From positions 744,001 to 808,000 of the forward strand of contig NZ_CP099735.1 of assembly GCF_025398175.1 (NCBI RefSeq): 64,000 nucleotides of DNA, given 5' to 3'. The DNA is from Photobacterium sp. TY1-4. Its GTDB lineage: Bacteria; Pseudomonadota; Gammaproteobacteria; Enterobacterales; Vibrionaceae. Made by a program: the position numbers and the translations under genes. Shown here in pieces: positions 16,577-26,718 of the stretch. Below the pieces are notes generated by a model. It ran no database searches. It was given only the letters and a program-made list of their open reading frames with translations, and had not been told where the DNA came from. The first letter of the stretch is position 1; the number at the start of each line of letters is the position of its first letter.

Positions 16577-16708
16577 ATGGACGCTTTAAACCAATATACG
16601 TTTGTTGCGCCAACCGAAGACGAGCTCATGGTTGAGCAACCTGATTTGCTTTATCTTGCCGAAGAGCAAGATGAAGAATTTGCCAATGACATCATCATTC
16701 TGGGCTAA
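16577..16708 (+). CDS. Very acidic 43-residue peptide beside the Fap-like locus
   Basis: ATG 16577 follows AGGAAAG by four bases. The product MDALNQYTFVAPTEDEL...ends EEFANDIIILG and is strongly acidic in its second half (EEQDEE). The frame is open further upstream, but the best ribosome-binding site belongs to this start. It ends in a strong terminator shared with the convergent regulator gene. There is no signal peptide. It could be a small regulator, an anti-factor or a leader-like peptide; I do not recognise it. Confidence 0.6.
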   Translation: MDALNQYTFVAPTEDELMVEQPDLLYLAEEQDEEFANDIIILG

Positions 16709-16717
16709 AGTTGATAT

Positions 16718-16747
16718 AAAAAAAGTCCGGCATGCCGGACTTTTTTT
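16718..16747. terminator. Strong bidirectional terminator
   Basis: A perfect stem of seven GC-rich pairs (16725-16731 with 16734-16740) is flanked by seven A and seven T residues. It separates the converging 43-residue gene and the VpsR-like gene. Confidence 0.92.
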
Positions 16748-16753
16748 ATCGCG

Positions 16754-18097
16754 CTATTCACGCACATAGCCGTTGTTATAGTGCCTGACATCGGGCACGA
16801 TATTATGCTTGTTCAACAAGCGATACATAGTCGCCCGAGAGACGCCAAGGTCCTTCGCAGCGGATGCAACCTGCCCCCGGTGTGTTTCGAGCACGGCAAC
16901 CAACACATCTTTTTCAGCTTCATCTTTAATATTTCTCAGACTCTGCTTGAGATTTGCCTTGCTCGGCAGATCAAAATGCTCTGCCCGAACTTCGTTGCCT
17001 TCAGCCAGTAACGCAGCGCGCTTCACTTGATTGATCAGTTCACGCACGTTGCCCGGCCAGCTATATCGCAGCAGTAACTGCTTGGAGTCTTCAGAAAAAC
17101 TGGACGCCATCGTACTGTACTCACGAGCAAACTTGGTCAGGAAGGTTTCTGCGAGCAAGAAAATATCTGAACCACGTTCCCGCAAGGTTGGCACTTTGAT
17201 GTGAAAAACGTTCAGACGATAATACAGCTCTTTGCTGAACTCGCCATTGGCCACCGCGGCTTCCAAATCAGCGCTGGATGAGGCAATAATACGCACATCC
17301 GCAGATGAGTCATCTTCCAGCGAATCTCCCGCCGGGGTCTGGAGGAAAGACAGCAATTCGTCCTGTAACTCTTTTGTAAGCTCTTCAACATTATCCAGTA
17401 AAATCGTGCCATTGAAATGGGAACCATCTTCCTGAACATAAGAGCCGTCCAGGAATGAGGCTTTGTCATCTTCCTTGGTCAGGGAGCCACAATTGACAGT
17501 AATAAAGGGGGCATTTCTCCGTTTCGACAAGCTATGAATGGACTTCGCAATCAGCTCTTTTCCGGTCCCGTTTTCCCCGGTCAGGAAAACGTTCACTTCC
17601 GTCATTGCGACGCGACGCACCATATCTCGTAACTGCTTGATTGATTTTGACTCACCAAACAGCCCCATATCATGCTGAGAGGTCACTTCGACCCAGGAGC
17701 TGGATTCAATTTCCAGCATCCCCAGCTGATGACCAACAGTATCCAGCAAATGACTGCCTGGGATCGGTACCGAAAAATAATCAACACAGAAGTTATTGAT
17801 GAACTGACAGATAGCATCCGTTTTCAACTGTTCTTTTTTAATGATCGCAATCCATTTGACCTGCTTCGTTTTATTTGCCCTTAAAGAAATGCTATTCAAG
17901 CTAAAATCATTATTGCTCAAATCTACAATACATATACAAGGACTGAATTCTTCCAGGATTGAATCAGCCGTCCGTAAGTCATAACAACAATGAGTTTTCC
18001 AACCTGATTGTTCCAAAAGCGCAATCCAAGGTTCATAATTGCAACCAATTGCAACCAGTCGACCATTTATTGTTTTATTTTGACATTGAGCCACCAT
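16754..18097 (-). CDS. VpsR-like enhancer-binding-type regulator lacking GAFTGA
   Basis: A 447-residue regulator with an atypical receiver domain (about residues 10-130), an AAA+ domain (about 145-385) and a Fis-type helix-turn-helix (GQVASAAKDLGVSRATMYRL). Counting from ATG 18097, the receiver aspartate in CIVDL falls at residue 59, the position used in V. cholerae VpsR. Walker A is GENGTGKE (174-181). The GAFTGA loop is absent, replaced by a shortened segment, and Walker B reads LLDN instead of LLDE. Such features in VpsR go with sigma-70 rather than sigma-54 activation. It neighbours the secreted-fibre operon and is its likely regulator. Confidence 0.82.
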   Translation of the reverse strand: MVAQCQNKTINGRLVAIGCNYEPWIALLEQSGWKTHCCYDLRTADSILEEFSPCICIVDLSNNDFSLNSISLRANKTKQVKWIAIIKKEQLKTDAICQFINNFCVDYFSVPIPGSHLLDTVGHQLGMLEIESSSWVEVTSQHDMGLFGESKSIKQLRDMVRRVAMTEVNVFLTGENGTGKELIAKSIHSLSKRRNAPFITVNCGSLTKEDDKASFLDGSYVQEDGSHFNGTILLDNVEELTKELQDELLSFLQTPAGDSLEDDSSADVRIIASSSADLEAAVANGEFSKELYYRLNVFHIKVPTLRERGSDIFLLAETFLTKFAREYSTMASSFSEDSKQLLLRYSWPGNVRELINQVKRAALLAEGNEVRAEHFDLPSKANLKQSLRNIKDEAEKDVLVAVLETHRGQVASAAKDLGVSRATMYRLLNKHNIVPDVRHYNNGYVRE

Positions 18098-18318
18098 AGA
18101 AGTCACCTTCTTTCAATGTACATATTATTATTGATGTCTTAAAAATATAGGCAATAAACGACGAGCTTGCAGGGTATCAGATGTAAGAATAGTCTCTAAA
18201 AGGGATTAGTCATGATGAGAAAGATACATTACTTTTTCAGATCAATCAGTTATGATTCGAAAAACCAGTAACAAAATTATACAGAAATGCATGGAAAATG
18301 TTTGGTAACAACAAAAAA

Positions 18319-18340
18319 GGTACAGTGCGTACACTGTACC
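18319..18340 (-). terminator. Terminator of the Fap-like subunit operon
   Basis: A perfect 9-bp stem (18319-18327 with 18332-18340) is followed on the minus strand by TTTTTTGTTGTT. It isolates the operon (21456 to 18392) from the regulator downstream. Confidence 0.85.
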
Positions 18341-18391
18341 TCATCAAACAATAAAAATTAACTATGTGTTTAGTTTAATATCGAATTTTCC

Positions 18392-18901
18392 TTAGTGGCG
18401 GCTGAACAGCAGCGCATTATTCAACCGATTTTCATAAATAGTTTGCTTAATGTATCCGTTCATATCCGCCTCAATATCCATGATGGTCTCGGTGCTGATT
18501 TGTGTCCCGTCATCAAAGTTCTGGATGACAAAGCCGGATGCTTCGGAATCAATGGTTGAATACTTGATCTCATTATTCTCAACCCGAATGTGCCTGAGTG
18601 GGTTATCCAGCGGCACCGATTTATCGCCGGTTGGACTGACCAGCATCCCATTGTTAATCGTAAAATCGGCGATATGGGTCGACAACACCTTTTCACCATT
18701 GATCGCTGTTGTAATCGACAGGCCGATATTGATTATGCTGTCGTTGATAGAAACAAACCCACCGCGCATAGAAGCCATCTCGCTATCGCTAAGGGACGTC
18801 AGCCCCAGATCATCCACGGTCATAAAGTTGACGGATGCCTGCGCAACAACAGCAGCCCCTCCTATTGCTGATGCAACGAAAATACGAGTTAACTTTTTCA
18901 T
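18392..18901 (-). CDS. Secreted protein with signal peptide plus double-glycine leader (Fap locus)
   Basis: A 169-residue protein with a Sec signal peptide (cleavage after about residue 22, AQA) followed by LSDSEMASMRGG at residues 37-48. This fits the bacteriocin-type leader LSxxELxxIxGG that C39 peptidases cut (Leu -12, Ser -11, Glu -8, Met -7, Met -4, Gly-Gly). The mature part (about 121 residues) is beta-rich with repeated Ile/Asn-containing strands (SINDSIINIGLSITTAING). It starts 8 bases after the C39 peptidase gene, so the peptidase is the obvious processing enzyme. By position it could be a FapE-like factor; sequence similarity is not evident to me. Confidence 0.8.
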   Translation of the reverse strand: MKKLTRIFVASAIGGAAVVAQASVNFMTVDDLGLTSLSDSEMASMRGGFVSINDSIINIGLSITTAINGEKVLSTHIADFTINNGMLVSPTGDKSVPLDNPLRHIRVENNEIKYSTIDSEASGFVIQNFDDGTQISTETIMDIEADMNGYIKQTIYENRLNNALLFSRH

Positions 18902-18909
18902 ACTAGCCT

Positions 18910-19584
18910 CTAATAATCGTTTGCTCCCGGTAGTGTAATACTAAAGGTTGCAAGTGAATCTCTCGCGATCGCTTCAGACGAAGGCGACGGCGTGTAGATA
19001 TTATAATTTTCATCCGTTATGAAGCTCTCTCTTCCTTGCTGTACATGACTTTTTACCAATAGCACTGCGCCTTTATAATATTTCTTAAAATCTTTAATTG
19101 GCATAACCATGGTACCACGCGACGGATCACCCAGAATAACCTGGCGGCTGTTCATACCTTTAATGACGACAAAGTGCATATAGCCATCAAAATTGACAAT
19201 GGTTATTGCTGGAATTTGTAGTTCCCCGAATTTCTCTAAAGGGAGATTATACCCATTCGCATCCAATCCAATTGAAACCAGGTAGTTTCTCATATCCAAC
19301 ATTGAGAAGCCTTGCTTTTCAATTTTTTCCTTATTGCCATTTTTGAACATGAATTCAAAAACAGTATTTTCCTGTGTATCCCGGCCATAGTGATAAGTTA
19401 CCAATGAAGCAACTGCAGCTGAGCCACAGCTGAAATCATATTGCTGACGATAAACATCGCCGAATAATTTCTCCTGATAACTTTTCACATTTATATTATA
19501 CGCGCCCCGGCTTGGAAAATAATCAAGCGCATAAAGACTACTGCTTGCTAACAGGCCTATCGTCAATATAACTGCTCTTTTCAT
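18910..19584 (-). CDS. Exported C39-family cysteine peptidase (FapD-like)
   Basis: A 224-residue protein with a signal peptide (about residues 1-19) and a C39 peptidase domain. The oxyanion glutamines lie in RQQYDFSCG, with Cys53 the nucleophile; His137 is in MHFVV and Asp153 in LGDPSRG. C39 domains usually belong to ABC exporters and cut double-glycine leaders in the cytosol. This one is free-standing and periplasmic, as FapD is in the Pseudomonas Fap system. It sits between subunit genes and the double-glycine protein, both likely clients. I prefer ATG 19584; GTG 19590 is possible. Confidence 0.85.
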   Translation of the reverse strand: MKRAVILTIGLLASSSLYALDYFPSRGAYNINVKSYQEKLFGDVYRQQYDFSCGSAAVASLVTYHYGRDTQENTVFEFMFKNGNKEKIEKQGFSMLDMRNYLVSIGLDANGYNLPLEKFGELQIPAITIVNFDGYMHFVVIKGMNSRQVILGDPSRGTMVMPIKDFKKYYKGAVLLVKSHVQQGRESFITDENYNIYTPSPSSEAIARDSLATFSITLPGANDY

Positions 19585-19669
19585 AATCACTACCGAAGTT
19601 TTTCTCTGTGTACCGACTCAACGCTGAAAGACTTTTATGCATGGTCCAGTTTTCCAGCAGATGGGAATA

Positions 19670-19689
19670 AAGGGCCGTAAACGGCCCTT
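19670..19689 (-). terminator. Intercistronic hairpin between subunit and peptidase genes
   Basis: A 9-bp stem (19670-19678 with 19681-19689) lies just after the 190-residue subunit gene and is followed on the minus strand by TTTATTCC. The short U-tract suggests partial termination, which would make subunits more abundant than the peptidase. Confidence 0.55.
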
Positions 19690-19697
19690 CATCCTGG

Positions 19698-20270
19698 TTA
19701 GTAGTTGCCGTTGTCCGGACTCACTACGCCCCCACCTGAGCCAACCAATGCTGCATTTGTGCTGGTTGTTTGTTGAACCATTGAGTTATTACCTACGTTC
19801 TGACCAGCCATGCTGATACCAGACGCGTCGCCGAATGCACGGTACATGGTGTTTTCATGGTCAACCACAACATTCGTTGGGCTTCCCTTACAGCATGCAC
19901 CGCCATAAGTGACACTGGCATCCATCACATCACCATAGAGCTTGGACTCAGCCAGATACTTTTCCATATCCTTCGATATTTTTTTGGTAAAGGATGCATC
20001 CACTTCTTTATTAATCTCCTTGGTGTTTCGGTAGTAATTGCCGACATCTTTCAAAATTAATTTGTCATCATCCGTGTTACCGACGTTACTTTTATATATA
20101 TTTTTTGTTTTTGAAAATTCTGCACTTTTGTATACTGAGAGATTCCCGCTACCCTCAATAGTGATATCACCATCATGATGATCATAGCCGTAGCCGCTAT
20201 CATACCCGTCAGCTAAAGCCAGCGGGGAAGCCACGAGTGCTGCAACTAGCATAAGATTACATTTACGCAT
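19698..20270 (-). CDS. Secreted fibre-subunit-like protein, paralogue B (Fap-like)
   Basis: A 190-residue protein with a signal peptide (cleaved after about residue 20, ALA). It has a Gly/Tyr/His/Asp-rich start, a charged middle, the conserved VTYGGACC with adjacent cysteines, and the fibre-type motif SGISMAGQNVGNNSMVQQ. This motif resembles both FapC repeats (GxNxAxGxxN) and curlin repeats (Sx5QxxxxNx5Q). It is a clear paralogue of the 203-residue protein at 20845-21456 in leader, CC motif and C-terminus. It probably polymerises outside the cell. Composition is AT-rich compared with flanking genes. Confidence 0.78.
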   Translation of the reverse strand: MRKCNLMLVAALVASPLALADGYDSGYGYDHHDGDITIEGSGNLSVYKSAEFSKTKNIYKSNVGNTDDDKLILKDVGNYYRNTKEINKEVDASFTKKISKDMEKYLAESKLYGDVMDASVTYGGACCKGSPTNVVVDHENTMYRAFGDASGISMAGQNVGNNSMVQQTTSTNAALVGSGGGVVSPDNGNY

Positions 20271-20429
20271 GATCTTACTCCAAATAATATATGCTTTTAT
20301 TTATAATATCCGCGCTTTGTTATAGTAATGCCTGTAAATCAACTCTGTGATTCAAATTGGCATACGACAACAGAAGTATTGTTATATTGTCCTGCGAAAC
20401 CCAATGTATATCCCAATAGGTTTTTGGTC

Positions 20430-20453
20430 GCTGACATATTTTCATATGTCAGC
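20430..20453 (-). other. Perfect intercistronic hairpin without U-tract
   Basis: A perfect 10-bp stem (20430-20439 with 20444-20453) has loop TTTC and lies 18 bases past the 110-residue gene, in a 200-base gap before the next subunit gene. No T run follows on the minus strand, so it is more likely an mRNA-stabilising or processing element than a terminator. Confidence 0.6.
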
Positions 20454-20470
20454 ATAGATAGACTAACAAT

Positions 20471-20803
20471 TTACTTCAATGTCAGGTTAACCACGGTCGC
20501 ATTTTGAATTAACACATTGTTACCAGTGTTTTGGACCACACTAACAATACCGGAAGTATTACTAAAGGTTCCCTCAGCAATAATATTGTCTCCGGTAATA
20601 TTGTTATATGCCCCATTACCTGCAACATCGCCATACATATCTGAACTTGCGTGAATATTATCGATTTGTAATTCGTATTGACCGCCGCGAGACATGGTCA
20701 GTACGTCTTCACTCAAGGAATCAGAATTTGCTAGAATATCCAACTCATCAGCAATTGCTCCACCCGAGATGAAAGCCAGTGCAATCAGCGTTAAATATTT
20801 CAT
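20471..20803 (-). CDS. Short fibre-subunit-like protein with double-glycine leader
   Basis: A 110-residue protein with a Sec signal peptide (cleavage near residue 18, AIA) followed by LSEDVLTMSRGG at residues 30-41, a double-glycine leader with Leu -12, Ser -11 and Leu -7. The mature part of about 69 residues holds the fibre motif SGIVSVVQNTGNNVLIQ, shared with the two larger subunits. It could be the nucleator or minor subunit, as FapB or CsgB are. It lies 41 bases after the 203-residue gene and is preceded by GGAGG. Confidence 0.78.
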   Translation of the reverse strand: MKYLTLIALAFISGGAIADELDILANSDSLSEDVLTMSRGGQYELQIDNIHASSDMYGDVAGNGAYNNITGDNIIAEGTFSNTSGIVSVVQNTGNNVLIQNATVVNLTLK

Positions 20804-20844
20804 GACTTCCTCCTGAGGGCTGAAATTCAGCCCTCAGCTATGTG

Positions 20845-21456
20845 TTATTGACTGGTTAACATTGCATTGGTACTGGCACTTTGTTGAACCAAAGAGTTGT
20901 TCCCTGCGTTTTGACCTGCAATATTAATCCCTGACGCACCGGTGTAAGCATCTTGCATTGAGTTACTGTGTGTAACTTGTAGTGAAGAAGGATCTGCATC
21001 ACCACCGCCATAATGACCCCAACCACCTTGATTACAGCATGCACCACCATAAGTCACATCACTGTAGGTGACTGAGCCATCCATGTAGGAAGTGGCCATG
21101 TAGTACTTCTCATCAATATCAATTTTGATGTTTTTGCTCATATCCCATTTACTGTTGTCAGTAAATTCATAGATATTTTTATTATTGACGTTATACAGCT
21201 TCATCGTATCATCATCGCTGTTATAACTGTCTTTAACCGTCACATTTTTCTCATGGGATACCGTCAGTTTTTTATCGATATCTTTATTGAATGAATCAGT
21301 GACTGTAACATCATGATCATCATCATGATAACCATTGTCGTAACCTGAACTGCCTGATGTTGAATATGGGTCATAGTCATGACCATATGGGTCATTCGCC
21401 AGGGCAAGCGGTGAACTAACAACTGCTACTAAAAGTGCGATATGTGTTTTACGCAT
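20845..21456 (-). CDS. Secreted fibre-subunit-like protein, paralogue A (Fap-like), first gene of the operon
   Basis: A 203-residue protein with a signal peptide (cleavage after about residue 20, ALA). It has a Tyr/Gly/Asp/His-rich N-terminus, a Lys/Asp-rich central region with alternating Val/Thr strands, the VTYGGACC cysteine pair and a His/Gly-rich loop. The terminal motif is SGINIAGQNAGNNSLVQQ. Single-motif subunits are much shorter than Pseudomonas FapC, which carries three repeats. As the promoter-proximal gene it is likely the major subunit. Histidine- and aspartate-rich clusters (YHDDDHD) might bind metal. Confidence 0.78.
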   Translation of the reverse strand: MRKTHIALLVAVVSSPLALANDPYGHDYDPYSTSGSSGYDNGYHDDDHDVTVTDSFNKDIDKKLTVSHEKNVTVKDSYNSDDDTMKLYNVNNKNIYEFTDNSKWDMSKNIKIDIDEKYYMATSYMDGSVTYSDVTYGGACCNQGGWGHYGGGDADPSSLQVTHSNSMQDAYTGASGINIAGQNAGNNSLVQQSASTNAMLTSQ

Positions 21457-21930
21457 GATCCTACTCCAAATATGTTGAGTTGTTCTTTTTTATAATCACC
21501 CGCGTTGTACCGCGAGATAACTTAATCATAGTTTTGACCACTCGCACTTTTGTATTATTTTTAATAAATCCATTGCTATTTCCGTATAAAATTGCCCTCA
21601 TCAATCACTTTACATTCTAACGCTCCGGTTACGATAAATGTCTCTGATACAATGATATATTTTTATTTCTAAGACAATTTCTCAAAAGTTATGACCGTCA
21701 TGAAAAAGCATGACACTCTCATTCGCAAGACAAGAATTTTAAATTCTCAGCTAACATGACTTTCTCAGATAAGCTAGGATTTTCTTATGAACAAGCCACC
21801 TCTATTCCGGCATTAAAATCATAATAGTTTTAAAGAAAGCCTTGATTCATCAATGCTGGTGAATCATCAGGTTACATCACTTTATCAATACTATTTTGGG
21901 GTCTGCCTCTGTGAGGTAAGTGAGGGAATT
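21457..21930. promoter_or_regulatory. Divergent control region of the Fap-like locus
   Basis: This AT-rich 474-base interval separates the leftward subunit operon from the rightward pore gene. It contains TTCTCA three times in one orientation (21679, 21744, 21762; the last two followed by G and 18 bases apart) and a short palindrome ATGACCGTCAT (21691-21701). These are candidate binding sites for the neighbouring VpsR-like protein. An upstream ATG at 21853 is in frame with the pore gene but gives no signal peptide. Confidence 0.5.
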
Positions 21931-22977
21931 GTGAGTATTTTCAAGTTAAAAAGTCTGATCGTGCTGCTTGCTTTCTTCTCTGTCTCGGTTGCAGCAGAAG
22001 AGTCGACCGCACCCAAAAATAATGAGAAGCCAAAGCGCGTCCAAACCGTCGCCGATATCCTGGAGCAACCGGGTGTCCTCACCCCCAAAGGTTCCTTCGT
22101 CTTGGATACCTCTTTGTCTTACACCCAAAACTCATCCAATTCAGTGTCTGTTGTCGGGTACACCGTCCTCCCTTCACTGATCATTGGTTTGATCCGTGCC
22201 AGTGATATTGACCGGACCACACTCACTCTGGGTCTGTCCGGACGTTACGGCATCACCAACCGGCTGGAAGTCGAAGCCCGGATCCCCTGGGTCTACCGCT
22301 CCGATTCTATCTCAGAACGAGACCTGAACAGCGGATCAAATCAAGCAGCCTTACGCACCGTCGACGGCAGTGATCTGGGGGATATTGAGGCAGCTTTCAA
22401 ATACCAAATCAACATGCGTGAAGCGCCGTACTGGATCGGGAGTTTGCGCTTTAAAAGTACCACAGGGAAATCCCCCTATGATGTTCCGGTGAACAACCTC
22501 AATGACTTTGAAGAGCTGCCAACCGGCTCAGGTTTCCCCAGTATTGAACCGGGGATCTCGATGATCATGCCGATTGATCCGGCCGTGATCTTCATGAACT
22601 TCAGCTATATCTGGAATATTAAAGATGATGTGGAAGTTGATATCACCGTTGCCGATGAAGACGGCGAAAACGCACAGGATATCCGGGTCGACACCATCGA
22701 TTTGGGCGACACCATAGGTTTCAGCGCCGGGATGGGGTTTGCGGTCAACCCTAAGTTCTCATTCAGTATCGGGCTGAGCCATAAAACCATTCTTAAATCG
22801 AAAGTGAACGGCTCAACGGCTACCGATGCCAAACTGTTGCAGCTGGATTCCCTGTCATTCGGGGCAAACTATGCCGTCGATCGGGACACCACCATCAATA
22901 TCGGCGCCACCGCCGGCCTGACCGCCGATGCCCCTGACTTTCAGCTGTCGGTCCGCGTCCCTTATACCCTCAAATAA
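21931..22977 (+). CDS. FapF-like outer-membrane beta-barrel pore
   Basis: A 348-residue exported protein. After the signal peptide (about residues 1-22) comes a short region that may form the N-terminal helical plug (RVQTVADILEQPGVLTP). The rest consists of alternating amphipathic beta strands with the family-like motifs GSFVLDTSLSY, YGITNRLEVEARIPWVYR and LTLGLSGRYG. This pattern matches FapF, the trimeric pore that exports Fap fibre subunits. GTG 21931 follows GAGGG by four bases and yields a clean signal peptide, so I prefer it over ATG 21853. It is divergent from the subunit operon. Confidence 0.82.
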   Translation: MSIFKLKSLIVLLAFFSVSVAAEESTAPKNNEKPKRVQTVADILEQPGVLTPKGSFVLDTSLSYTQNSSNSVSVVGYTVLPSLIIGLIRASDIDRTTLTLGLSGRYGITNRLEVEARIPWVYRSDSISERDLNSGSNQAALRTVDGSDLGDIEAAFKYQINMREAPYWIGSLRFKSTTGKSPYDVPVNNLNDFEELPTGSGFPSIEPGISMIMPIDPAVIFMNFSYIWNIKDDVEVDITVADEDGENAQDIRVDTIDLGDTIGFSAGMGFAVNPKFSFSIGLSHKTILKSKVNGSTATDAKLLQLDSLSFGANYAVDRDTTINIGATAGLTADAPDFQLSVRVPYTLK

Positions 22978-24545: not shown

Positions 24546-24911
24546 CAAACCTTCAAACGGCGCCAGTGTAGCATTCTCCTGTCAGAAACTGCCAGAAAGC
24601 CATCCCATCCCATGTCCATGCCCACGCTCAAACGGCGCATTGACCCATCGCAAGATGCCACCATTTTGAAGTTTTTCATAACAACGCAGAGACGAAGCCC
24701 TTCTCACCCGTAATCTGAGATACGGTTCACAACCTGGAACTGAGCGGTCACGGATTGTTCAGCGCAAGTCTTGAAAAGCAGCCAGCCGGACCGATATCTT
24801 AAGCGTGCAGACAGGTGTTCCGGCGGAACATCGTGATTTATGTGAAGCAATTTGCGACACGAAATTCACCGTCTGAACCACTTGACCCTGGTGGTAACAA
24901 AAGGAGCATCA

Positions 24912-25694
24912 ATGGTTGCAAAATCCATCATCAGAACATGCGTTGTTCTTATGTTTGTCCTGGGCCGCAGCCCCATCGCTTCAGCGACCCTGCCCGACTA
25001 CCATCGCCCGGATATTGAACACCCCTCTCCGACCCGAGGATCGAAAGCCTGTTTTCAGCGCTCACTCAGTGGCCTGTATGCCATTCCCAGTTACCGAGCC
25101 CCAACCCTTGCCCAGCCCCACCGTGACTTCAACAGCCTTTACACCGCAGCGGCACTCGCCCAGCAGGAGCTGGAAGCCCTAATCCACCGTGTCAGCCTGA
25201 CAACGCAAACCCGTCCCGTGATCCCCGATCTGAAGTCGATTGAACGGGCCCGGTATAAAATCGACACAGAGCTCAACGGCCAGTGCGATCAACTGACCGA
25301 CCTGGCACGCGGCTCCATTGTCGCCCGTGACATTGGCAGCATTGTTCAAACGTTCGAGCTGTTCAATCAGGAAGCTGAGATTGTGGAAGTGAAAAACCGC
25401 TTCAAGCAACCGGCGTCCTCGGGATACCGCGATTTAAAATTGCTGATTCGGCTGCCCGAGTCACAACTCATCGCCGAAGTTCAGCTCCACCTCGAAACGA
25501 TTTCAGCCATCAAAAACGGCCCTGAACATGGCATTTACGAGACGATTCAGGGGATTGAACGCCAAGCCGAGCAAGCCCAGCGCACCTTAACACCACTGGA
25601 GCGCCAGCAACTAACGGATTTACGCCGTCAGGCACAAACCCTGTACCAAACCGCATGGCATCACTACCTGCGACCCGAGCGCTCCGCCGCTTAA
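24912..25694 (+). CDS. Exported RelA/SpoT-fold protein, copy 1
   Basis: A 260-residue protein with a signal peptide (about residues 1-25) after AGGAG and ATG 24912. A helical N-terminal part (FQRSLSGLYAIPSY, LAQQELEAL) precedes a region matching the (p)ppGpp-synthetase fold: RARYKID (114-118), DLARGSIV (130-137), VKNRFKQP (160-167), GYRDL (171-175), EVQLHL (189-194) and GPEHGIY (203-209). These correspond to the conserved D, K, GY, ExQ and H..Y positions of RelA/SpoT synthetase domains. Export is odd because the usual ATP substrate is not expected in the periplasm. A tandem paralogue of identical length follows. Confidence 0.75.
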   Translation: MVAKSIIRTCVVLMFVLGRSPIASATLPDYHRPDIEHPSPTRGSKACFQRSLSGLYAIPSYRAPTLAQPHRDFNSLYTAAALAQQELEALIHRVSLTTQTRPVIPDLKSIERARYKIDTELNGQCDQLTDLARGSIVARDIGSIVQTFELFNQEAEIVEVKNRFKQPASSGYRDLKLLIRLPESQLIAEVQLHLETISAIKNGPEHGIYETIQGIERQAEQAQRTLTPLERQQLTDLRRQAQTLYQTAWHHYLRPERSAA

Positions 25695-25935: not shown

Positions 25936-26718
25936 ATGGATGCCAAAACCTTGTTCCGTACCGGTTTTCTTCTGCTGTGTTTACTCAGTCCCAATACGCT
26001 GGTCGCAGCACAGCAGCGCTTTACAGAGCCGGAACTGGAAACGGCCTCTGATCGGAGTCTGTTCAACAAACAGGTTTTCCAGCAAAGCCTGAGTGGCCTT
26101 TACAGTATCGACAGCTGGAAAGCTGCCGAGATCCGACAACCCTATCAAACCTTTCCACCGCTCTATCACGCAGCCCATGCCGCGCAGCAAGAGCTCGATA
26201 CCGTCCTGAGCCGCATCAGCGGGCAGTCTACCACTGAGCCCCTGATGGGAAATCTCAAATCGGCCCACCGGGCCCAAGCTAAAATCGCGACAGACTTAAA
26301 AGGCGACAGCAGCCGGATCACGGATCTGGCACGTGGCTCACTCATTGCTGACAATGTCCCGGATCTCGTCCATGCTTACGCGCTGCTCGGTCAGGAACTG
26401 ACGATTGTTTCGGTCAAAAACCGCTTTAAACATCCCGCGCCATCCGGCTACCGTGACCTCAACGTGCTGGTTCGCCTGCCGCAAAGCCAGCTCATTGCTG
26501 AGGTGCAGCTCCACCTCGCTGCAATCGCTGAGGTCAAAAGCGGCCCGGAACACCAGCTATACGAGCAGATCCAGGAGATCGAACGACGGGGGCTCGAAGC
26601 CGATCGCCCGTTAACAGATCTGGAACAGGCGAACATTGCCCGGCTACGCCAAACCTCCGGTCAGTTATATCAGGCGGCTTGGCAACAGTATCTCCAGCCC
26701 CAGACCCTGGCCGGTTAA
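25936..26718 (+). CDS. Exported RelA/SpoT-fold protein, copy 2
   Basis: A 260-residue paralogue of the preceding protein, aligning without gaps at the key positions. Signal peptide about residues 1-25 (ending LVAA); FQQSLSGLYSIDSW; AHRAQAKIAT; DLARGSLI (130-137); VKNRFKHP; GYRDL (171-175); EVQLHL (189-194); GPEHQLY (203-209). The 241-base gap between the copies suggests each may have its own promoter. Whether the pair is catalytic, a toxin-like secreted enzyme, or has lost nucleotide chemistry cannot be decided from sequence. Confidence 0.75.
   Translation: MDAKTLFRTGFLLLCLLSPNTLVAAQQRFTEPELETASDRSLFNKQVFQQSLSGLYSIDSWKAAEIRQPYQTFPPLYHAAHAAQQELDTVLSRISGQSTTEPLMGNLKSAHRAQAKIATDLKGDSSRITDLARGSLIADNVPDLVHAYALLGQELTIVSVKNRFKHPAPSGYRDLNVLVRLPQSQLIAEVQLHLAAIAEVKSGPEHQLYEQIQEIERRGLEADRPLTDLEQANIARLRQTSGQLYQAAWQQYLQPQTLAG

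Follow-up and report, generated by a model that had tools for sequence, protein, structure and literature searches.

Gene content and relation to Fap proteins

We analyzed a window of 64,000 nucleotides from Photobacterium sp. TY1-4 (contig NZ_CP099735.1, positions 744,001 to 808,000 of the forward strand; window coordinates are used throughout), a strain that has P. marinum and P. atrarenae among its close relatives. Positions 16577 to 22977 hold a compact set of genes that resembles the functional-amyloid (Fap) locus fapABCDEF of Pseudomonas and is probably a second type of Fap locus, for a secreted fibre. The gene for a FapF-type pore lies on the plus strand, divergent from the other genes; on the minus strand, from 21456 downward, follow major subunit 1, a small protein, major subunit 2, a C39 peptidase, a further secreted protein and a VpsR-like gene. 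The original prediction, made from the letters of the sequence, had named these open reading frames, all of which were present at these places, and had proposed profile searches, structure predictions and a synteny survey across Vibrionaceae as checks. The subunit, pore and processing genes and their features are listed here.

21931..22977 (open reading frame from 21853), plus strand: FapF-type outer-membrane pore (NF058560, PDB, Foldseek, alignment)
20845..21456, minus strand: major subunit 1, 203 residues, with signal peptide, DSxN-rich half, VTYGGACC and one Fap-register motif
20881..20931, minus strand: Fap-register motif G-x5-Q-x2-G-x6-Q, subunit 1 residues 176-192 (invariant alignment columns)
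20471..20803, minus strand: small FapB-like protein, 110 residues, with double-glycine leader and one Fap-register motif
20681..20716, minus strand: small-protein leader LSEDVLTMSRGG, residues 30-41, predicted FapD cut
20501..20551, minus strand: Fap-register motif G-x5-Q-x2-G-x6-N, small protein residues 85-101
19698..20270, minus strand: major subunit 2, 190 residues, paralogue of subunit 1 (40-45% identity)
19770..19820, minus strand: Fap-register motif, subunit 2 residues 151-167
18910..19590, minus strand: FapD-type periplasmic C39 peptidase (NF058616)
18392..18901, minus strand: FapE counterpart, 169 residues, secreted, with double-glycine leader (NF058559 and profile comparison)
18758..18793, minus strand: FapE-counterpart leader LSDSEMASMRGG, residues 37-48, predicted FapD cut before F49

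The identification of the pore as FapF-like was borne out. Its product matched NCBIfam NF058560 (E 9.1e-49; 166 bits, below the curated cut-off of 700 bits) and the FapF crystal sequences 5o65-5o68 in the PDB (E 1e-34 to 1e-35), and the first 18 PDB matches of its AlphaFold model in Foldseek were FapF structures (5o67_B, E 1.1e-18; also 5o65 and 5o68). The peptidase, likewise predicted to be FapD-like, matched NF058616 (E 6e-38, 130 bits; curated cut-off 330 bits). Both proteins matched Fap families above any other NCBIfam family, yet below the curated cut-offs. The second-best matches of the peptidase and the pore were FilB and FilC (NF050078, NF050079) of a 'putative pilus system', which we take to be that of Acinetobacter; these were weaker (101 vs. 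130 bits and 52 vs. 166 bits). The GTG at 21931 is favored as the FapF start because of homology and an upstream sequence resembling a ribosome site.

The window FapF has 39 residues, signal peptide included, before the plug helix (VADILEQPGVLTPKG), compared with 117-154 in five canonical FapF. Judged by eye, there was no evident room for a coiled coil before the plug in 19 Vibrionaceae FapF rows and in three of eight others, and five of the eight second-type FapF from outside the family had long, charged, coiled-coil-like N-termini. A sequence GVLTP[KR]G, or a close variant, followed the plug helix in second-type FapF and was absent from the five canonical FapF. A 2018 statement gives a coiled coil to all FapF homologues and calls the domain essential for secretion (PMC6173795), so the Vibrionaceae form would be a real departure.

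Three secreted proteins had been predicted to share one SGIxxxxQNxGNNxxxQ motif each, and the motif was seen in all three (SGINIAGQNAGNNSLVQ in 20845-21456, SGIVSVVQNTGNNVLIQ in 20471-20803 and SGISMAGQNVGNNSMVQ in 19698-20270). Each of 94 subunit homologues (P0001-P0094, without the outlier P0095) had a single copy of a looser form. Four motif positions, namely G85, Q91, G94 and N101 of the small protein and G176, Q182, G185 and Q192 of subunit 1, are spaced like G157, Q163, G166 and N173 of the FapB in L095, which belong to the final repeat of canonical FapB and did not vary among four FapB. The motif is G-x5-Q-x2-G-x6-[NQ] and, by our own reading, is in the register of that repeat. N101 of the small protein was invariant in Photobacterium and replaced in two of 17 aligned rows. 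The adjacent-cysteine motif VTYGGACC ascribed to the two paralogues was present in both, but the cysteine pair is not universal (89/94 subunit homologues; lost in L037). A comparable position holds CxxC or CC in several Vibrio subunits, and FapC carries CxxC (PMC6173800).

The proposed hidden Markov model search thus placed the pore and the peptidase in Fap families but left the three motif proteins outside FapB and FapC, with no match to NF058557 or NF058558 at E up to 1; the same models found canonical Vibrio FapC (7.6e-93) and FapB (2.8e-14). In profile comparisons, the major subunits matched the small-protein profile (89.7%), and the small protein aligned weakly to FapB (29.1%), at an earlier repeat in the same register. 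No FapA had been obvious in the locus, and none of the seven open reading frames scanned matched a FapA family (the FapA content of NCBIfam was unchecked and the remainder of the genome was not searched). This lack does not distinguish the locus, since FapA is absent in many published Fap loci (PMC3792158).

The species-named members among the 95 subunit homologues, found by scoring the 7992 best-sharing candidates, were Photobacterium. A large subunit from a sister genus (L091:3518-5725) has about 700 residues with short DDGNTLTHTYSS-type repeats, which indicates the extent to which the major subunit varies while the remaining locus stays. For the small protein, 3651 relatives passed E 1e-3, and many of the best 120 carry the database name 'carbon storage regulator'; this name looks wrong because the small protein is secreted.

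The FapE counterpart, its leader and the FapD-type peptidase

The further secreted protein of the original prediction was present at 18392-18901, but its identity as a FapE counterpart and its double-glycine leader had been missed. It matched NF058559 over its N-terminal region (E 0.0083, 15 bits; cut-off 250) and, at E up to 10, no other protein of the genome matched that model; genome-wide, its own match is weak (E 0.05). Profile comparison with canonical FapE gave 88.9% (2.4e-6) over 34 columns of the leader stretch. The leader, LSDSEMASMRGGF, lies about 14 residues past the likely signal peptide and has the form LSxxE[LM]xxxRGG, with F following the predicted cut.

Leaders cleaved by C39 peptidases follow a double-glycine consensus of L at -12, S at -11, E at -8, L or M at -7, a hydrophobic residue at -4 and GG at -2 and -1. 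By its residues, the FapE-counterpart leader fits this consensus. The 65 closest homologues gave 52 distinct windows, anchored on RG plus G, R, K or Q, in which the frequencies were 0.83 for L (-12), 0.63 for S (-11), 0.75 for E (-8) and 1.00 each for M/L (-7), RGG and F (+1). Of these 65 proteins, 63 had RGG, the remaining two having starts that lie downstream of it, and 54 had the strict pattern; the set of 65 omits the 25 weakest of 90 matches, among all of which RGG was found in 82 and the strict pattern in 71. The eight FapE counterparts from outside the Vibrionaceae all read RGGF. The strict pattern was rare in the background, occurring in 1/628 unrelated open reading frames of the same loci, in 0/64 with a crudely signal-like start and in 7/13,000 shuffles; plain RGG by itself occurred in 37/628. 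These background frames are mechanical, many not being genes, and exclude family members (with them, 38/788). Canonical FapE has an equivalent leader that ends in RG[KR] followed by Y or F in 13/13 sequences aligned of the 15 at hand, and the two outside the alignment also read RGRF. Of ten short leader fragments, four weakly matched TIGR04149 (twice), TIGR03898 and PF04369 (E 0.0074-0.15), which, in part by assumption, we take to be double-glycine leader families.

The small protein carries a comparable leader, which fits the consensus less well, position -4 being mostly Ser. Among the best 120 of its 3651 homologues, RGG was present in 102 and RG[GRK] in 115.

The peptidase is a stand-alone secreted protein without an ATP-binding cassette (ABC) transporter domain, and C55, Q49, H139 and D155 were retained in all 33 FapD sequences compared, consistent with the predicted periplasmic C39 enzyme. 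In Pseudomonas, the FapD active-site cysteine is required for FapC secretion, and FapE is the sole Fap protein with complete N-terminal processing (PMC5557850). Published work describes Fap proteins as being without canonical C39 sequences (PMC5557850, PMC6173800); a 2018 paper regarded the FapD substrate as undetermined (PMC6173800), and a 2025 review has FapE and FapF as proteins that FapD is 'thought to' process (PMC12822426). From the leader we infer that FapD would cut the FapE counterpart after RGG, which would give a precise site for the FapD substrate. Vibrionaceae FapF is without the long linker that is the other proposed target, which may also speak for FapE. YGG/ACC in the major subunits was considered as a C39 site and rejected because its second Gly is not constant (YGAG, YGGG) and the residues at the leader positions do not match.

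Conservation and distribution of the probable second type

Subunit 1 was present in 31 of 52 Photobacterium genomes, its own genome counted, and FapF in 32 of 52. The gene order was repeated in the Photobacterium loci that were readable. The locus is not a chance arrangement, given this recurrence, the share of genus genomes with the subunit and the single looser motif in each homologue. The region had been described as AT-richer than its surroundings, and its G+C content is indeed 0.37-0.44 across 17.5 to 22.5 kb compared with 0.47-0.56 in the flanks. Recent horizontal import was considered as an explanation and set aside: the block occupies one syntenic site in the Photobacterium genomes examined, so its AT-rich make-up is no sign of recent arrival.

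Eight fetched Photobacterium genomes without FapF (L147-L154) have the same flanks, consisting of nrdD, the VpsR-like gene and a 132-residue gene, with the amyloid block missing. In five of them, a mere 400 bp or so separates the VpsR-like gene from the 132-residue gene; in three (L147, L148, L153) an unrelated reading frame fills a 2-kb gap, in which no Fap remnant better than E 0.15 was found. Further along the window, two adjacent paralogous secreted proteins (24852-25694 and 25936-26718) presumably resemble RelA/SpoT-type domains, a label given by eye; the eight genomes without the locus have one or both at the corresponding position.

The synteny survey extended the locus through the family. 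FapF matches at E up to 1e-10 were found in 81/329 Vibrionaceae genomes, of which four held canonical Fap by score (371-397 bits) and 78 the type marked by RGG leaders, one genome having both. The small protein was detected in 76/329 genomes, all within the 81 with FapF (lists compared by eye); it was missing from two RGG-type genomes, G037 and G196, in both of which FapF lies close to the end of a contig and, in G196, is interrupted as well. All 19 loci read from Vibrio and a sister genus (g10) have a large subunit, the small protein, FapD, the FapE counterpart and FapF on the other strand, and a locus of another genus (L092) has the same gene set. In one Vibrio locus (L097:8767-9455), FapD is broken into two reading frames. 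Beyond the Vibrionaceae, the small-protein profile detected eight further genomes among 274 of the class (nine with our own), and FapF, FapD and the FapE counterpart stood beside the small protein in all eight.

Trees of FapF (32 rows) and FapD (33 rows) split the five canonical sequences from the rest on a 100/100 branch; the trees are unrooted, and the canonical sequences are few, with none from a named Pseudomonas. The RGG side holds the Photobacterium locus, the Vibrio loci and the eight other gammaproteobacterial genomes. Two genomes carry both canonical and RGG-type loci (G184, locus L089; G340, loci L139 and L141). Among the matches listed in the open-licence literature, no title or abstract start mentioned Photobacterium Fap or the RGG type. 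A 2025 review describes Fap as evolutionarily 'fixed' with three repeats, from searches requiring FapB/C repeats (PMC12822426). Because such surveys start from these repeats, the RGG type would probably be missed by them. Fap may therefore be more widespread and more plastic than stated, with the RGG type in 78 and canonical Fap in four of 329 Vibrionaceae genomes.

Interpretation and the VpsR-like regulator

The gene kinds and their order point to a second type of Fap locus that would secrete fibres, and we consider this reading probable; what is conserved here is a variant of a machine already known, and it yields a specific prediction for one step of Fap secretion. It shares with Pseudomonas Fap the plugged FapF barrel, the FapD C39 peptidase, a FapE counterpart with an equivalent leader, and small and large secreted subunits. 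Unlike Pseudomonas Fap, its subunits fall outside the FapB and FapC families and carry one Fap-register motif rather than three repeats, its FapE counterpart reads RGG rather than RG[KR], the leader is also found on the small protein, and FapF is divergently placed and lacks an evident coiled coil. Curli (Csg) also have Q/N-rich extracellular subunits, and subunit 2 weakly matched CsgA (E 0.0018, residues 2-54), but that match covers the N-terminal part only and the pore and processing proteins are of the Fap type. No window protein scanned matched the curlin repeat family in Pfam, curli genes elsewhere in the genome not being part of the search.

A broader reading, for and against which we see the evidence as evenly balanced, is that a second, so far unlisted class of Fap machine is spread across the Gammaproteobacteria. 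In this class, FapE (and FapB) would carry a bacteriocin-like double-glycine pro-leader, which a C39 peptidase in the periplasm takes off once Sec has exported the protein. This two-step logic, present in the degenerate RG[KR] form in canonical FapE, would settle the FapD substrate; the Vibrionaceae pore would do without the coiled coil, and single-motif, CC-linked subunits would replace three-repeat FapC in Photobacterium. On the main reading of the Photobacterium locus, all secreted parts would cross the inner membrane by Sec, and FapD would then remove the FapE-counterpart leader after RGG and, in Vibrionaceae, the small-protein leader as well. Leader removal may license export of unfolded subunits through FapF, whose short N-terminus might replace the coiled coil in plug control. 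Outside the cell, the small protein would seed and the two larger subunits polymerize into a matrix fibre, cross-linked by CC in the role of the FapC CxxC, and the VpsR-like protein could switch the genes on with cyclic di-GMP (c-di-GMP). Fibre formation is thus a suggestion drawn from gene content and motifs. The clean RGG leader predicts the exact bond cut by FapD and makes its substrate testable in vitro.

Several observations weigh against these readings. The major subunits gave 1% against the FapB profile, and none of 95 had a double-glycine leader. The structure prediction of subunit 1 (54 sequences) was disordered, with a predicted local distance difference test (pLDDT) of 40.5, and therefore shows no amyloid fold; this check, which the original prediction had also proposed for the subunits, was uninformative. 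The confidence of the FapF model was moderate (62). Similarity to FapE does not extend past the region of the leader (15 bits, cut-off 250). Among the ten leader fragments, six had no double-glycine family match, four matched no family and one matched the unrelated PF02208 (E 0.14). The small-protein leader fragments matched no leader family, the strict pattern was found in only 63 of the best 120 of 3651 relatives, and the leader was mostly degraded outside the Vibrionaceae (RGG in one of seven readable N-termini). The FapF linker has also been named as a possible FapD target (PMC5557850).

The low complexity, variability and predicted disorder of the major subunits, together with their lack of FapB or FapC matches, would suit a pore that exports a non-amyloid surface or matrix adhesin, its Asn/Asp-rich, variable major proteins being soluble or coat-forming and not cross-beta. 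We consider this unlikely: the conserved motif, as we read it, stays in register with the last repeat of FapB, and there is a weak alignment between the small protein and one FapB repeat. A rather smaller likelihood attaches to a merely diverged canonical Fap whose FapB and FapC orthologues have passed beyond recognition. The gene kinds are the same, and FapA loss and the separation of FapF from the other genes are published variants (PMC3792158), but the FapF and FapD trees separate the types on the 100/100 branch, with the limits on canonical sequences given above, and two genomes hold both types. It is very improbable that the genes encode a hydrophobic-substrate uptake channel of the COG4313 kind beside a microcin-like double-glycine peptide system: FapF is one member of a wider family of channels, and bacteriocin export typically involves C39 peptidases and double-glycine leaders, but FapF structures outscored the COG4313 channel 4rl8 (1e-18 vs. 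9e-12) and the peptidase is secreted without a transporter domain.

Two further features concern the possible control of the second-type Fap locus.

16754..18106, minus strand: VpsR-like regulator, no GAFTGA loop (PF20161, 8.6e-48; VpsR 7v2b, 7.9e-107)
21490..21570, no strand: candidate regulatory site in a conserved intergenic stretch upstream of subunit 1 (8-sequence alignment)

The profile and structure-sequence matches confirmed the predicted VpsR-like neighbour as a member of the VpsR family and a VpsR paralogue. It has VpsR, AAA+ and Fis domains, and the absence of GAFTGA was read from the sequence. The nearest known regulators are VpsR of Vibrio cholerae, with the same domains, and BrfA of Pseudomonas fluorescens, which senses c-di-GMP and acts directly as an activator of fapA (PMC13101488). 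VpsR-like genes adjoined canonical Fap in all five loci read, and the second type in three of eight non-Vibrionaceae loci and L092; in Photobacterium genomes with the block, the gene was 84-97% identical to the window copy. VpsR-like control of the locus is plausible, gene position being the basis of the link. The link is weakened because orthologues exist in Photobacterium genomes without the locus (70-75% identity in 16/20 genus genomes without FapF), and none of the 19 Vibrio or g10 loci had a VpsR-like gene within the fetched stretches. Promoter footprinting of eight sequences upstream of subunit 1 yielded no nameable motif; within 21490-21570, CGAGATAACTTAATCATAG and a T-rich stretch were largely conserved. 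The VpsR-like gene was interrupted in two of the eight fetched genomes without the locus (L148, L154). Contig C1 carries a second gene of the VpsR-like kind (47% identity).

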